Assembly: GCA_025360005.1 (NCBI GenBank)
Contig: JANYDA010000005.1
Span: 1 to 32,097, forward strand
Source of the DNA: Fibrobacteria bacterium
GTDB lineage: Bacteria; Fibrobacterota; Fibrobacteria; UBA11236
DNA: 32,097 nt
Direction of reading: 5' to 3'
Below the pieces are notes generated by a model that saw only the letters and a program-made list of their open reading frames with translations, was not told the DNA's origin and did no database searches. Shown here piece after piece: positions 5,679 through 29,007 of this stretch. Numbering within the stretch: the stretch's first letter is position 1; each line of letters begins with the position of its first letter. The position numbers and the translations under genes are program-made.

Positions 5679-5765
5679 CGGAGAAGGGGGGATTCGAACC
5701 CCCGGTACCTGTAACAGTACAACGATTTAGCAAACCGTCGCCTTAAGCCACTCGGCCACCTCTCC
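5679..5765 (-). tRNA. tRNA-Ser (anticodon GCT)
   Basis: An 87-nt class II tRNA. The acceptor stem GGAGAGG pairs with CTTCTCC and the discriminator is G73, as usual for serine tRNAs. The anticodon loop holds GCT (complement at 5729-5731), reading AGC/AGU. A long variable arm and the T-arm GGGGGTTCGAATCCCCC are present. The gene carries CC but not a full CCA after the discriminator. It lies upstream of gltX on the same strand. Confidence 0.95.
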
Positions 5766-17418: not shown

Positions 17419-17492
17419 GGACGATTAGCTCAGCTGGTTAGAGTATTACCTTGACATGGTAGGGGTCACTGGTTCGAGTCCAGTATCGTCCA
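17419..17492 (+). tRNA. tRNA-Val (anticodon GAC)
   Basis: A 74-nt tRNA. The acceptor stem GGACGAT pairs with ATCGTCC and the discriminator is A. The D-arm is TAGCTCAGCTGGTTAGAG. The anticodon loop TTGACAT gives GAC, reading GUC/GUU. The T-arm is CTGGTTCGAGTCCAG. CCA is not encoded. Confidence 0.95.
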
Positions 17493-22198: not shown

Positions 22199-22344
22199 CG
22201 TTGTATCCGATCCGGACGCAAAGGCAATCGCGGGGTTACCCTTCTGCGCCGGCGCATGTCTCAATTCCCGGTCGCACCCTTCCCTAAAAAGCTAAATATG
22301 TGGGCGACTCGTCTTGTCCACCTCCAAGTTACGGAAACATCCCG

Positions 22345-25029
22345 ATGACGGACTTCACCAGGACCCCGCCGCAAATCCCGCCTGAGCAGGCCAATTTCCG
22401 TTCCCGCATGGCCGACAATGCCACGCCGCGCAAGCAGGATATCAGGAGCAGCAAATCCCTGATGCTCAGCGCAATCGTGGTGGCATCCTCGCTGCTTCCC
22501 GTGATTCTTCCGGGCATTTTCGCCTATGCTTTGCGCAATCCGCTCCTGAGCATGGTTGATGCGAGGCCGCAAAGCGGCTGGCTGGGCCTGTTCGCATCGT
22601 TGCTGGTAATCGGCCTGCAAATCTGGATGACGCGCCGTTCCACCTTCCGCATCTGCTTTGAGAACCTGCGCATGCCGGCGCAGGAGATCATCGGCTACCT
22701 GTGGCTTTGCCGTTTCGGCGTGGCCATGCTGCTGATGGTGGCTGCCACCTTTCTGCTGGTGCCGCAAGGCGAGGAATCCCTACGTACGCTTTTCGAGCAT
22801 GCCCACCGCTTCGATTTTTGGTATTACCTGCGCGCCTGTTTCTTCCATGCCAGCGTCGTCCTCTTTTCGCTGGCCTTGTGGTTCTCCAGCCGGTACCTGG
22901 TGGATCGGTTCCGCGGGGAAAACCGCGGATCGTCCATCCAGATCAACTTCCCGCGCATTCTGGGGGCCCTGGGTTGCCTGATCCCGGCCCTGGCGCTCCA
23001 TCAGGCTTCCTATGCCTACCTGAGCGACTCCCATCCAGTAACGCGTGTGTTACTGATGCTTCCTGCTTTCGCGCTTTTCTTCGTGGGTCCCAGGCTGTTT
23101 CCGGGCCTGCTGCTGTTGCTGGGGGTCATTTATGCGACCGCCTACTTCCCCAACATCTGGATAGTCGATCGCGGCGGGGTGGAAGGCCACGCCTGGCATT
23201 CCCTGAACCGGGCCGCTTTGATCGAGTTTTTCCTGGGCGGCCTCCTATCCTGGTTCTTCGTGGGCCATCGCGCCTTGCGCGAAGCGCAAAGCCTGCGGGT
23301 CGGCGCGACCGCGGAAATGCCGGCGGTGCCTGCGGATCCCGGCGGTAAACCCGGGGCGGGCGCGGGAACGGTCGTGGCCCCCAGCGCGGATTTCATGACG
23401 CGTACTTCGCAAAGCTTCCCGCGTATCTGGTGGCTGTGCGGAGCGGCTTTCATTCTTATCCTGGCCGTCATCACCCTGTTCCCGGAAGTCCCCGGATCCC
23501 TGAACGCGGCCGGCATCCTGGTATTCGCGTGCGCCAGTTGGATCAGCCTCGGCAGCATGCTCACTTCTTTTTCCGAGAAGCCGCCCGGGCAAACCGCCTT
23601 GCGCGCGCGGCCCCTGCCCGTATTCTCGGCGTTGATAGCCGCGTTGGTCGGATTCGGCCTCATCAACGACAACCATCCCGTCCGCCAACTGGGGCGCTTG
23701 CCGATGCCCGCTCCCCGCGAACCCAGCCTGCACGCGTATATCGGCGATTGGCTGGCCGCATCCGGCGATCGCTGCCCGGAAGCCGAGGGCCGCCCGCAAC
23801 CCCTCATCCTGGTGGCGGCGGAAGGCGGAGGCATCCGCGCGGCCTATTGGACGGCGTCCGTGCTCTCGGCCTTGCAGGATCGGTATCCCTGTTTCGCCTC
23901 CGGCGTGGCGGCCTTAAGCGGGGTCTCCGGCGGCAGCGTGGGCTCCGCCGTATTCGCCGCGCAAGTGGCCCACCGCATCGGTTTGGCCCAAGGCGCGCCC
24001 CAGCCGGTTTGTCAGGACTATGATGGCGCGATAAAGAACACCTATCTGGCCTGCTCCCGGCGCGTGTTGGGTAAGGATTTCCTCTCGCCTACCTTGGCCT
24101 ATCTCCTGTTCCCGGATCTGGTGCAGCGCTTTCTGCCGTTCCCGGTCGCCTTCTTCGATCGCGGCGCGGCCCTGGAGAAATCCTGGGAACGCAGTTGGAA
24201 GTCCACCTTCAAGAGTTCCGATTACTTCGCGGCACCGTTCGATTCCCTGTGGAAGAATCCCGGTCCCGCTTGGCGCGTGCCCGCGCTGTTCCTGAACGGC
24301 ACCTGGGCGGAGAACGGCTGGCGCCTCATCAGCGCGCCCGTGCAGTTGGGCCGGGAAGAGGTCTCCGCCGCCCGCAATGTTTTCGATCTGGCCGATCATC
24401 CCATGCGCCTTTCCACCGCCGCGCACGTCAGCGCGCGCTTCACCTACGTTTCGCCTGCGGGTACCTTAATCCGGGACGGGAAGGTGGCCGGGCACGTGGT
24501 GGACGGCGCTTATTTCGAGAACTCCGGATCCGCCACCGCGGGGGAAATCCTCAATGCCTCCCGGGGCGTGCTGGATTCCGCCGGCTACCGTCTGGCGCGG
24601 ACCAAGGATACCGTGGACGTGGTGCCTATCCTGCTGGTCATCCGCTTCCAGGCGCAGCTGCCCAAGGACAGGATCGAACTTACCACCGGACCGGTGCCCC
24701 GACCGCAATTGGTCCTGAAGGAAACCACGGTACCGCTCACCACCTTGATGAACACGCGCTCCGCGCGCGGCGATTTCTCCTTGGATGCCATCCGCATCCA
24801 GATGACCCGTGTGGCCCGCCTCCAGCATGCGACGGCGCCCCCGGCGCGCGTCATCGAAGCCACTCTATACGAGACCCAGGCCCCGCTTCCTTTGGGCTGG
24901 TCGCTTTCGGAAGTGGCTCAGGAGGAAATGGCGCATCAGCTGGAAGGGTGGCTGCAGCATTCCGAAGCCGTGCGCTATCTGGACGGGATCTTCGCGCATG
25001 GCGGGCCCGCGGCGCAAACTTCCCTATAG
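22345..25029 (+). CDS. Multi-TM membrane protein with patatin-like phospholipase domain
   Basis: An 894-residue protein. About ten hydrophobic segments (roughly residues 37-445) form a membrane part, broken by an Ala/Pro/Gly-rich linker near 330-360. The C-terminal part (about 480-880) is a patatin-like lipid acyl hydrolase. EGGGIR (493-498) supplies the oxyanion hole, Ser528 in SGVSGGS is the GxSxG nucleophile, and Asp720 in VDGAYFENS is the DGA Asp, so the Ser/Asp dyad is intact. Membrane phospholipids are the likely substrate class, not shown. The ATG at 22345 has a weak site; a GTG at 22300 is in frame. It is inserted between rplT and pheS, genes that are usually adjacent, and is followed by pheS after 78 nt. 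Confidence 0.85.
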   Translation: MTDFTRTPPQIPPEQANFRSRMADNATPRKQDIRSSKSLMLSAIVVASSLLPVILPGIFAYALRNPLLSMVDARPQSGWLGLFASLLVIGLQIWMTRRSTFRICFENLRMPAQEIIGYLWLCRFGVAMLLMVAATFLLVPQGEESLRTLFEHAHRFDFWYYLRACFFHASVVLFSLALWFSSRYLVDRFRGENRGSSIQINFPRILGALGCLIPALALHQASYAYLSDSHPVTRVLLMLPAFALFFVGPRLFPGLLLLLGVIYATAYFPNIWIVDRGGVEGHAWHSLNRAALIEFFLGGLLSWFFVGHRALREAQSLRVGATAEMPAVPADPGGKPGAGAGTVVAPSADFMTRTSQSFPRIWWLCGAAFILILAVITLFPEVPGSLNAAGILVFACASWISLGSMLTSFSEKPPGQTALRARPLPVFSALIAALVGFGLINDNHPVRQLGRLPMPAPREPSLHAYIGDWLAASGDRCPEAEGRPQPLILVAAEGGGIRAAYWTASVLSALQDRYPCFASGVAALSGVSGGSVGSAVFAAQVAHRIGLAQGAPQPVCQDYDGAIKNTYLACSRRVLGKDFLSPTLAYLLFPDLVQRFLPFPVAFFDRGAALEKSWERSWKSTFKSSDYFAAPFDSLWKNPGPAWRVPALFLNGTWAENGWRLISAPVQLGREEVSAARNVFDLADHPMRLSTAAHVSARFTYVSPAGTLIRDGKVAGHVVDGAYFENSGSATAGEILNASRGVLDSAGYRLARTKDTVDVVPILLVIRFQAQLPKDRIELTTGPVPRPQLVLKETTVPLTTLMNTRSARGDFSLDAIRIQMTRVARLQHATAPPARVIEATLYETQAPLPLGWSLSEVAQEEMAHQLEGWLQHSEAVRYLDGIFAHGGPAAQTSL

Positions 25030-25107: not shown

Positions 25108-26238
25108 ATGCAGCCCATCGATGAAATCCGCGTCCGCCTGGACGGGGACGTGCAAAAGCTAGAGTCCCGGGTCGCCGGAAAATCCGCCGCGCAGGCTCCC
25201 GCCCTCGCGTCCGGACCCGAGGAGGAAGGCCCCACGCCGGCCAGGCAATTCGAGGATTTAAAGGTCCGCTACCTGGGCAAGAAGGGCGAAATCTCCGGAC
25301 TCCTGCGCGCCATGGGCACGCTCCCTGCCGAAGAGCGCCCCGGCTTCGGCAAACTGGTCAATGAATTGCGCGATCGGGCCGAAGCCCTTTTTGCCGCACT
25401 CCAGGAACGCATCCAGGAGATGGAAATCGCGGGCAGCCTGGCGGGTTCCAAATTGGATCCGACCCTGCCCGGTTATCGCGTCCCGCTGGGCTCCCTGCAT
25501 CCCATGAGCCAGGTGCGCGAAGAGATCATTGCCTTCTTCCAGGGCCTGGGTTTCGAGCTGGCGGTGGCGCCGGAAGTGGACAACGACTGGTACAATTTCG
25601 AGGCGCTCAACATCCCGCCCGATCATCCCTCCCGTGACATGCATGATACCTTCTACGTGGACGACAAGGTGGTGCTCCGCACGCATACTTCCAACGTGCA
25701 GGTCCATTACATGGAGACGCATCCGGACCAGCCTATCCGCATCATCGCGCCCGGCTTCGTCTACCGCGTGGACAACGACGCCACCCATTCGCCCATGTTC
25801 CAGCAGGTGGAATGCCTGGTGGTGGACAAGGACATCTCCTTCGCCAACCTAAAAGGCACCCTTTTCCTATGGGCCCGCCACATGTTCGGCGCGGAAACCA
25901 CCATGCGGTTCCGGCCCAGCTATTTTCCTTTTACGGAGCCGTCCGCGGAGATGGACGTGTCCTGCTATTTCTGCAAAGGCACAGGCACTGTGCCTACGGG
26001 TACGGGTACTGTTCCCGCGGGCACGGGCTGCCGCGTCTGCAAGCAAACCGGCTGGATCGAAATCGGCGGCTGCGGCAGCGTAGACCCCAACGTGTTCGGC
26101 AAGGTGGGATGGGATGCGGAGAAATACACCGGCTTCGCCTTCGGTTTCGGCATCGATCGCATCACCATGCTCAAGTACGGGATACCGGACATCAGTTATT
26201 TGACGCGGAACGACAATAGGTTCCTGAGGCAGTTTTAG
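25108..26238 (+). CDS. pheS: Phenylalanine--tRNA ligase alpha subunit
   Basis: Catalytic alpha chain of the (alpha-beta)2 synthetase, class II, 376 residues. An N-terminal coiled-coil region binds tRNA. Motif 2/3 regions (PGFVYRVDNDATHSPMFQQVE; GFAFGFGIDRITMLKYGI) and FRPSYFPFTEPSAEMDV are intact. As in many bacterial PheS proteins there is a cysteine-rich insertion with two CxxC pairs (Cys286/Cys289 and Cys308/Cys311), followed by GWIEIGGCG. Here the loop between the pairs is expanded by two copies of GTGTVPx (291-304) plus GTG. The N-terminal region also has an extra Ala/Glu/Pro-rich stretch (about 24-46). pheT follows after 234 nt, an unusually long gap. Confidence 0.96.
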   Translation: MQPIDEIRVRLDGDVQKLESRVAGKSAAQAPALASGPEEEGPTPARQFEDLKVRYLGKKGEISGLLRAMGTLPAEERPGFGKLVNELRDRAEALFAALQERIQEMEIAGSLAGSKLDPTLPGYRVPLGSLHPMSQVREEIIAFFQGLGFELAVAPEVDNDWYNFEALNIPPDHPSRDMHDTFYVDDKVVLRTHTSNVQVHYMETHPDQPIRIIAPGFVYRVDNDATHSPMFQQVECLVVDKDISFANLKGTLFLWARHMFGAETTMRFRPSYFPFTEPSAEMDVSCYFCKGTGTVPTGTGTVPAGTGCRVCKQTGWIEIGGCGSVDPNVFGKVGWDAEKYTGFAFGFGIDRITMLKYGIPDISYLTRNDNRFLRQF

Positions 26239-26269
26239 GCTGGCCGGAACGAGGAGAAAGAAGAACTTT

Positions 26270-26410
26270 GCAAATTGAAAATCGCAGATTGAAAATTGCA
26301 AATTTTGGAGACGCCCGAATTTGCATTGGCGCGCGCGGGAATGCGCTGCGCCTTGAGAAAGAGGCGTCGCCTTTTCCCCTTCAATTTTCAATCTGCGATT
26401 TTCAATTTGC
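26270..26410. repeat. 141-nt element with perfect 29-nt terminal inverted repeats between pheS and pheT
   Basis: The left arm (26270-26298, starting GCAAATTGAAAATCGCAG) and right arm (26382-26410, ending CTGCGATTTTCAATTTGC) are exact reverse complements over 29 nt. The arms are A+T-rich in a G+C-rich genome and contain the sub-repeat ATTGAAAAT. The 83-nt core is G+C-rich and has a nested pair GACGCC/GGCGTC and an inner GGCGC/GCGCC. The RNA would fold into one long hairpin within the pheST transcript. There is no coding sequence that fits, so this looks like a non-autonomous, MITE- or REP-like repeat. Family membership cannot be tested from one copy. Confidence 0.85.
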
Positions 26411-26472
26411 CTATTGCAAAAAAAAGCCTTACCCGTTCAAACCGCTCGCAGGATAGTCCCCGAAGGATCCCC

Positions 26473-29007
26473 ATGGAAGTCAGTCTCAATTGGATCAAAA
26501 AATACGTCGACCTTTCCGGCGCGGACGATCCCGGCGCTCTCTCCAAGGCTTTGACCTCCCTGGGGCTGGAGGTGGAGGGCATGCGCATTGTCGGCGCCTT
26601 GCCGGGCGTGGTCTCAGCGGAAGTACTGGAATGCGGGCGCCATCCGGAGGCGGACAAGCTTAGCGTTTGCAGCGTGACGGATGGAACGGAAACATATCCG
26701 GTGGTATGCGGCGCGCCCAACGTGGCCAAGGGCCAGAAGGTGCTGTTGGCCAAAGTGGGGGCGGAGCTTCCGGGCCAGGGACCGGGCCAGCCGGGCCTGA
26801 AGATCAAGAAGGCCAAGCTGCGCGGCCAGGAATCGCACGGCATGATCTGCGCCGAAGATGAGGTGGGATTGGGGGAAAGCCATGCGGGCATCCTGGTCCT
26901 CGATCCGGCTACGCCGCTGGGCCTGCCCATGGAAAAGATCCCGGGCTTAGGCGACGTGATTTTCGAGATCAACGTAACGCCCAACCGTCCCGACGCCTTG
27001 TGCCATACCGGCGTGGCCCGGGAGTTGGCCGCCGTGCTGGGGAAACCGCTGCGTTACCCTGCCGCCGCCCTCCGCGAAGCGGGCCCGGACATCGCAGGGT
27101 TGATCGCCGTCGAGCTGGAAGACAAGCAGGGCTGCACCAAATACGTGGGCCGGGCGATACGGGGCATCAAGGTTGGGCCCAGCCCGGATTGGCTGGTCAA
27201 GGCCCTCAAGTCCATCGGCAAGCGCAGCATCAACAACGTCGTCGATCTCACCAATTATGTCCTGTTCGAGGTGGGTCAGCCTTCCCACGCATTCGACTTG
27301 AACAAGATCCGGGGCCGCAAGGTCATCGTCCGCAAAGGGCGCGCGGGCGAGAGGCTGAAAACCCTCGACGATGCGGAACGCGTCATCACCGTTGAGGATA
27401 TGGTCATCGCGGACGCGGATGGGCCGATGGTCCTGGCGGGCGTAATGGGCGGCAAGGATTCCGAAGTGGATGCCGCCACCACGGACATATTCCTGGAAAC
27501 GGCCTACTTCACTCCTTCCGTGGTACGCCGCCAAGGCCGCCGCCATGGGCTTTCCAGCGATTCCTCCTTCCGCTTCGAGCGCGGCATCGATCCTTTGAAC
27601 ACGGCATGGGTAAGCGATTACCTGGCCGCCCTGATCGCGCGGGAATGCGGGGGCGAGGTTGCCGGCGGGCGCCTGGAAATGACCGCGGCCGATCATCCCA
27701 CGCAACCCCGCAATGTCAGCCTGCGTCCGGTGCGGGCGGAAAAATTGCTGGGCACGGTGCTGGGGGCGGAAACCTGCGCGCGGCGTCTGGAATCCATCGG
27801 TCTGGTGCGCGGGGCCGCGGCAAGAATGAACGGAGAAGACTCCATCGCTTTCGCCATCCCCGGCTTCCGAGGAGATCTGGAGCGTGAGGTCGATCTCATC
27901 GAAGAGATCGCGCGCCTGGGCGATTACAACGGCATCCCCGTCGTGCTTCCTTCGCTGCCCTTGGGATTCAAAGCCTTGCCGCCCCTGGAAAGCCTGGCGC
28001 GCAGGCTGCGCCATCATCTCCGCGATGCAGGCCTCAATGAAGCCCTCAACCTGCGTTTCTCCTCCCGCAAGGTTTTGGCCAAGCTGGGCCTGGCCGCGGA
28101 CGATCCACGCAGCGCCTGCGTGCCATTGCGCAATCCCCTTAGCGAAGAGTGGGAAATCCTGCCCACCACCGCCTTGCCGGCTTTGCTCAACGCGGCCGCG
28201 TACAACCAGAACAACCAAGAGCGGAATATCCGTTTGTTCGAGATCGCCAAATCCTTTTACCATCGCCCTGAGTTCCGCACCGAACGGGCGCCGGGGGTGT
28301 TGGAAGAGGAAATGCTTTACGTGGTGTTGGCGGGGGAATGGCCGGATCGGCGTCCCTGGGGCTCCGATGCCGTCGCATCCATGCCCGTGGAGTTCCATCA
28401 TCTCAAAGGCATATTGGAAAATCTCCTGGCCGCCGCCGGGGTCAAGGCCCGCTTGGCTTTCCCGGGATCGGAAACCTATTTGCATCCGGTGGAATGCGGG
28501 CGCATCCTGGCTGACCTGGCGCCTCCGGTTCCGGGCACGGAAGTGTTATGCGGAACCCTGCGCGCCGCAGGCCGGCAAAAGGCGGCCGGCATCGGTTGCT
28601 TCGGCATTTTGCATCCGCGCGTGCTGGCCGCCTTCGCTTTGAAAGGCCCCGTGCTGGTGGCGGAATTGTCGTTGGCCGGTCTGTTGGCGGCCATCCCGGA
28701 AGAGAAAAAATTCGCCCCCTTCGGCCATTTTTCCACTATGTCCCGGGACCTGAATCTGGTGGTCGAGGATTACCGCACGCATGGGGAAATCCTGGCGCAG
28801 ATACCGTCAAGCCGCATTCCCATCCTGCAGGAAGTGCGCCTTAACAGCGTGTACCGCGGGCCGGGCGTGCCGGATGGGAAAAAGGCGCTGCATTACAGCT
28901 TCATTTACCGGCATGCCGAAAAGACCCTGACGGATGAGGAAGTCAATAAGGTGCAGGAAAAACTGAACCAGGAATTGGCCAAGGATTCCGGAATCGTTTT
29001 TAAGTGA
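26473..29007 (+). CDS. pheT: Phenylalanine--tRNA ligase beta subunit
   Basis: Beta chain of PheRS, 844 residues, somewhat longer than E. coli PheT. Domain order is: B1 start (MEVSLNWIKKYVDLS), EMAP/tRNA-binding domain (about 40-155), B5 and B3/B4 with the Tyr-editing site (about 200-400), the catalytic-like B6/B7 part, and the C-terminal FDX-ACB anticodon-binding domain (FGHFSTMSRDLNLVVED ... KTLTDEEVNKVQEKL). The ATG at 26473 follows GAAGGATCC and matches the family start. The frame is open back to 26296, but that stretch is the inverted-repeat element and is not part of the protein. Confidence 0.96.
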   Translation: MEVSLNWIKKYVDLSGADDPGALSKALTSLGLEVEGMRIVGALPGVVSAEVLECGRHPEADKLSVCSVTDGTETYPVVCGAPNVAKGQKVLLAKVGAELPGQGPGQPGLKIKKAKLRGQESHGMICAEDEVGLGESHAGILVLDPATPLGLPMEKIPGLGDVIFEINVTPNRPDALCHTGVARELAAVLGKPLRYPAAALREAGPDIAGLIAVELEDKQGCTKYVGRAIRGIKVGPSPDWLVKALKSIGKRSINNVVDLTNYVLFEVGQPSHAFDLNKIRGRKVIVRKGRAGERLKTLDDAERVITVEDMVIADADGPMVLAGVMGGKDSEVDAATTDIFLETAYFTPSVVRRQGRRHGLSSDSSFRFERGIDPLNTAWVSDYLAALIARECGGEVAGGRLEMTAADHPTQPRNVSLRPVRAEKLLGTVLGAETCARRLESIGLVRGAAARMNGEDSIAFAIPGFRGDLEREVDLIEEIARLGDYNGIPVVLPSLPLGFKALPPLESLARRLRHHLRDAGLNEALNLRFSSRKVLAKLGLAADDPRSACVPLRNPLSEEWEILPTTALPALLNAAAYNQNNQERNIRLFEIAKSFYHRPEFRTERAPGVLEEEMLYVVLAGEWPDRRPWGSDAVASMPVEFHHLKGILENLLAAAGVKARLAFPGSETYLHPVECGRILADLAPPVPGTEVLCGTLRAAGRQKAAGIGCFGILHPRVLAAFALKGPVLVAELSLAGLLAAIPEEKKFAPFGHFSTMSRDLNLVVEDYRTHGEILAQIPSSRIPILQEVRLNSVYRGPGVPDGKKALHYSFIYRHAEKTLTDEEVNKVQEKLNQELAKDSGIVFK

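Follow-up and report, generated by a model that had tools for sequence, protein, structure and literature searches.

Inverted arrays of different heptads occupy the pheS-pheT gap in related Fibrobacterota species

The gap between pheS and pheT was occupied by inverted heptad arrays in seven species, with seven different heptads, and by none in three others. Period, inverted layout and gap recurred, and the sequence was replaced. The copy described here lies in a window of 32,097 nt (the whole stretch of DNA that was analysed) from a genome designated G000, to which relatives G001 onward were compared. On balance, we read it as one copy of a dispersed TTGMAAA heptad family of one Fibrobacterota genus, and jointly with this we hold, with the same modest preference, that elements dispersing repeatedly into a restricted number of tolerated gaps between cistrons would explain the repeat occupancy.

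A repeat search of the window recovered two perfect arms at 26270-26298 and 26382-26410, complementary at 29 of 29 positions and spaced by 83 nt, as the earlier note had described. The flanking genes matched pheS, the alpha subunit of phenylalanine--tRNA ligase (25108-26238, + strand; TIGR00468, 308.6 bits, cut-off 237), as the upstream cistron and pheT, the beta subunit (26473-29007, + strand; TIGR00472, 669 bits, cut-off 403), as the downstream one. The gap between them was 234 nt, compared with 14 nt in G004 and 7-76 nt in most of the more distant relatives, bearing out the statement that the two genes are normally near-contiguous. The left arm sits in an array of about 5.3 units at 26268-26304 (+ strand), in which Tandem Repeats Finder (TRF) reported periods of 7 and 14; the arm reads as the tandem heptads TTGCAAA, TTGAAAA, TCGCAGA, TTGAAAA and TTGCAAA. 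The right array (26382-26419, + strand) is its reverse complement, consisting of the perfect arm plus one degenerate unit to 26419. The internal sub-repeat ATTGAAAAT noted earlier was present, but it is a piece of this period-7 array. When searched as a degenerate pattern, the arm occurred twice in the whole window, once for each arm, against a chance expectation of 0.01. The G+C-rich core (26299-26381) folded by itself with a z of about -2, and the RNA fold of the complete inverted repeat reached -77 kcal/mol compared with -51.7 +/- 4.0 for shuffled sequences (z -6.3, with 0 of 200 shuffles equal). GAAGGA, the probable Shine-Dalgarno sequence of pheT, is retained 3' of the element at 26462-26467 (+ strand), and an identical motif precedes pheT in G005. 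A coding sequence in the gap was rejected, since the open reading frames listed across it were either TTG-start extensions of pheT or antisense. At the Rfam gathering score, only two tRNAs were found in the whole window (17419-17492, + strand, and 5679-5765, - strand), and no known RNA family matched the element. The 909-aa open reading frame immediately 5' of pheS (22300-25029, + strand) was without an NCBIfam match.

Similar places were found by the dozen elsewhere in G000. When 815 kb were covered in full, together with three further loci, 18 paired TTGMAAA elements and several single arrays were counted, and the copies had common ends, GARGAWTTTTGC...GCAAAAWTCYTC. The arm search across the genome thus returned many copies with shared ends, and the repetitive part of the earlier idea of a small mobile or repetitive element stood, but no mover was found for the mobile part among the Y1 and RT families searched. 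The TTGMAAA cores were 34-98 nt long and mutually unrelated (mean score 14.7, null 13.7). Whole-element matches among 41 relatives were confined to the element's own genus, and one exact arm pattern, when compared with named genomes, matched a single contig (L038, Fibrobacteres bacterium RYN_348). Single heptad arrays lacking a core and sharing the outer ends of full elements were observed in G000 at C21:105664, C32:269777, C40:43767, C56:21578 and C8:107955; these are perhaps deletion products or founders.

The occupants of the pheS-pheT gap were TTGMAAA in G000, GGGGTTA in G001, GTCGGGC in G002, AGGGTAC in G003, AGGTTTA in G005, AATGAGA in G006 and GGGGGAC in G009; the gap was empty in G010 (34 nt), in G008 (7 nt) and in G004 (14 nt), a sister species. 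A single copy conserved at this site, with covarying arms, had been named beforehand as the sign of a native regulatory structure. This was half borne out: six further species of the family had an element in the gap, but the sequence differed each time and the element was multicopy. In a more distant Fibrobacterota species (G045, L179), a pheS-pheT gap of 128 nt was filled by a long inverted repeat whose 5' arm was pyrimidine-rich and whose period was not evidently 7. Between parE and parC, the units were TTGMAAA in G000, AAAAGTT in G001, AGGGTAA in G003, AGGTTTA in G005 and GGTTGTT in G009, and G002, G004 and G006 were empty. The gap after serS was occupied in G000, G001, G003 and G005, with its own unit in each. 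Before metH, G000 carried an element, G004 a core-less copy of the same family, G006 CACAGCA and G009 AATGATG, and G002 and G003 were empty. The metH site gave a filled/empty pair, in which the G000 element lies between TGA and CTTACCAACACTAAGGACC and G002 reads TGA-CTTACAAGACAAAGGACC; the flanks of the core-less version in G004 were as in this pair. More unit swaps were seen 3' of parC, 5' of guaA and at two other gaps. Across the orthologues of six gaps occupied in G000, 17 of 34 were occupied, compared with 17 of 578 gaps elsewhere in those stretches (Fisher p = 6e-15, a value that is overstated because the species are related and the tally was unblinded, although the contrast is still large). 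This tally was made by eye on gaps picked for their occupancy in G000, with species taken as independent and borderline cases (half arm, core-less) scored as empty.

Inverted repeats with both arms periodic were sought de novo in 815 kb of G000 at periods 4 to 15, which gave 17 at period 7, 16 at its harmonic of 14 and 0-1 at each other period. The same-family relatives (381 kb) had 13 at period 7 versus 0-2 at non-harmonic periods, and 334 kb of other Fibrobacterota families had one at period 7. The units found were TTGMAAA, GTCGGGC, AGGGTAC, AGGTTTA, GGGGTTA, AATGAGA, AATGATC, GGTAGAC, GGGGGAC, GGTTGTT, AAAAGTT, CACAGCA and GCAAAAG. The 5' arm was usually the purine-richer one with G over C, the exceptions to one or other part being CACAGCA and GGTTGTT. 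Elements of the class consist of a core of 20-170 nt between two arrays of a 7-nt unit in inverted orientation, and the pheS-pheT element, with its tandem 7-nt arms and its dispersed, intergenic, multicopy occurrence, belongs with what may descriptively be called heptanucleotide inverted-repeat intergenic elements. Several heptad families stood side by side in each species, in patchy, species-specific bursts, reaching tens of copies or roughly a hundred in some species and missing from others. GTCGGGC gave 78 matches in G002, 68 in G005, 11 in G000 and 0 in G001, G003 and G004; AGGGTAC gave 0 in G005 and 94 in G003, a count that includes arms on both strands. Several AGGGTAC copies in G003 were 79-89% identical over the full element, and their cores contained related motifs, with GGTTTTCC on one side. 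The GTCGGGC cores had AAAAAACCG...CGGTTTTTT in common; at L095:2312-2425, L158:2870-3010 and other G002 and G005 loci this formed a nested A-run/T-run hairpin with a variable tip hairpin, and this structure inside the heptad arms resembles a bidirectional terminator. At L198:4047-4220 in G002 we observed a GGGGTTA element, and the matching place on G000 contig C45 held a near-loopless palindrome of a different unit, GCAAAGTGCAAATTTGCACTTTGC.

Nearly all elements lay between genes read in the same direction. In G000, 25 of 26 were in co-directional gaps compared with 433 of 617 of all gaps (p = 0.001), and the bias persisted against gaps of at least 120 nt, 131 of 203 of which were co-directional (p = 0.0002); the relatives gave 26 of 29. 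Genes were called here with a simple ORF and GC-position rule. The elements often filled the whole gap, starting a few nt 3' of the stop codon, although individual element-gene distances are approximate because of this rule.

We modestly favour the reading that short heptad elements disperse repeatedly into tolerated gaps between cistrons, where an older heptad array probably aids insertion by serving as a target for recombination. At pheS-pheT, the element would presumably be transcribed with the operon, placing a long hairpin between the two parts of the message, and such a hairpin is a plausible RNase III site or exonuclease block. The orientation of the core relative to transcription (5:4 in G003) is consistent with insertion, as this is expected if the core carries no directional signal. 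Other observations count against dispersal: 50% of gaps being reoccupied is a lot for tolerance alone, the cores of the TTGMAAA family to which the window copy belongs are non-homologous, unlike those of ordinary MITE copies, and neither a target duplication nor a transposase was found (Y1 and RT being the movers searched).

The main alternative, which we consider possible but rather unlikely, is that these are native regulatory hairpins inherited at fixed gaps, the stem being selected for mRNA processing, stability or translational uncoupling and the unit being turned over by genome-wide concerted evolution. Occupancy of the same gaps across species with units replaced fits this view, as do the three sites common to G003, G005, G000 and G001 and the apparent intermediate arrays (AATGAGA/AATGATG, and the similar AGGGTAC, AGGTTTA and GGGGTTA). 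Cores were also more stably folded than dinucleotide-shuffled sequences (mean z -1.04, n = 49, p = 7e-5). Against it, orthologous gaps were empty in G004, G008, G010 and others, whole families were missing from some sister species, and the core orientation in G003 was unbiased. If stems were maintained individually, matching should be best between the two arms of a single copy, and this was not observed: the match within copies was no better than between copies in G000 (0.887 vs 0.859, p = 0.56) or in G003 (0.871 vs 0.874), indicating no surplus of the kind expected from stem selection or intramolecular correction in either genome. The window copy has one variant heptad that is mirrored across both arms, which speaks for fixed hairpins but is a lone exception, not weighable by itself. 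Because the tests of arm-arm matching and core orientation were negative, we prefer repeated insertion at favoured gaps to a conserved regulator; the data lean toward dispersal over fixed selected hairpins without settling between them.

It is unlikely, in our judgment, that one unrecognised process, an enzyme or a repair route, uses arbitrary 7-nt units to build and spread hairpins across many bacterial phyla and targets the same operon gaps, with the architecture inherited and the sequence rewritten. A MITE or REPIN proper, whose non-autonomous copies are moved by a resident transposase (a RAYT for REPINs), appears slightly less probable again. The size, inverted ends, dispersed copies and patchy families would suit such an element, but the mover search, which covered the Y1 (PF01797) and RT (PF00078) families, found no PF01797 in G000 or G002-G006, and a REPIN/RAYT mover was rejected on that ground; the family did occur in G001 and G010. 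Of the six genomes examined from its genus, G001 was the sole carrier of Y1/RAYT-like transposases (L215, L217). No target-site duplication was seen at the filled/empty comparisons, where the flanks were mostly too diverged and metH was the cleanest. Internal sequence common to copies was lacking in TTGMAAA and was found in part in AGGGTAC of G003 and GTCGGGC of G002. REPINs and REPs with their RAYTs are dispersed intercistronic inverted repeats of species-specific sequence. In contrast to these, G000 is without a RAYT, and tandem 7-nt arms of changing unit differ from the REP palindrome, which the element lacks. The MITE/REP-like label given before was therefore not upheld, as G000 combined unrelated cores with the absence of a Y1/RAYT gene and of any target-site duplication seen.

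A bidirectional intrinsic terminator or attenuator within the operon is very improbable. The GTCGGGC cores do contain AAAAAACCG...CGGTTTTTT, and 8 terminator-like cores were counted in G000 versus 3.3 expected, but the excess was small across all families (9 vs 5.2 expected, 49 cores), the elements were almost missing from convergent gaps, where such terminators belong, and the 5:4 core orientation in G003 showed no bias. A scan of 26100-26600 gave no site in the pheS-pheT gap, and a looser one flagged the window core on the + strand with a null probability of 0.33; an intrinsic terminator was rejected on the scan, the co-directional context and the lack of orientation bias. Templated heptad synthesis by a reverse transcriptase was rejected because PF00078 was missing in G000-G004 and G006.

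Inverted pairs of heptamers have been described in other bacteria. In each Xanthomonas genome, 70-75 inverted GGGAATC pairs have their G-rich strands turned toward one another; most are intergenic, with flanking ORFs that run in the same direction, and two species carry them largely between the same genes (PMC4692102). These resemble the present elements in their tandem 7-nt units, inverted pairs and co-directional gaps. There, a single unit for the genus was reported and discussed as a G-quadruplex former (PMC4692102), whereas the Fibrobacterota units are many and coexisting, most are incapable of forming quadruplexes, and one gap holds different units in different species. Geobacter metallireducens has paired repeat sites of classes 1-3 on opposite strands, including class 3 heptanucleotides (MTYCTGA) and class 1 octanucleotides; one pair lies in the proB-proA gap, where G. 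sulfurreducens has a different repeat (PMC2700814). The paired inverted heptad arrays and the other repeat in the sister species' gap are as here; unlike here, the sites were read as IHF/HU regulator sites, numbered 8-24 pairs and came without a cross-species survey (PMC2700814). Cyanobacterial STRR heptamers likewise form intergenic or intronic hairpins, including those in the hupS-hupL gap (PMC2670836) and the P6b stem of the Nostoc trnL intron (PMC3488679), for which transcript stability or coupling was suggested; they differ in belonging to another phylum, and the intron stem is a structural insertion in an RNA (PMC3488679). The TAACTGA repeats of Beggiatoaceae are dispersed intergenic heptamers, patchy across phyla, but they are short direct arrays right before start codons and hardly ever inverted (PMC4679880). 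Work cited in PMC4679880 and PMC4692102 links the overabundance of heptamers in bacterial tandem repeats to polymerase slippage.

Paired heptamer elements are already known; the new part is the exchange of units at fixed operon gaps. Until now, intergenic heptamer repeats were known from scattered reports in several phyla, with no mechanism given. The pheS-pheT gap supplies a natural series of seven species with seven units at one gap, plus empty sites, and this is repeated at other operon gaps. It results in a testable choice between a mover that favours operon gaps and the maintenance of a hairpin between cistrons whose sequence is exchanged.
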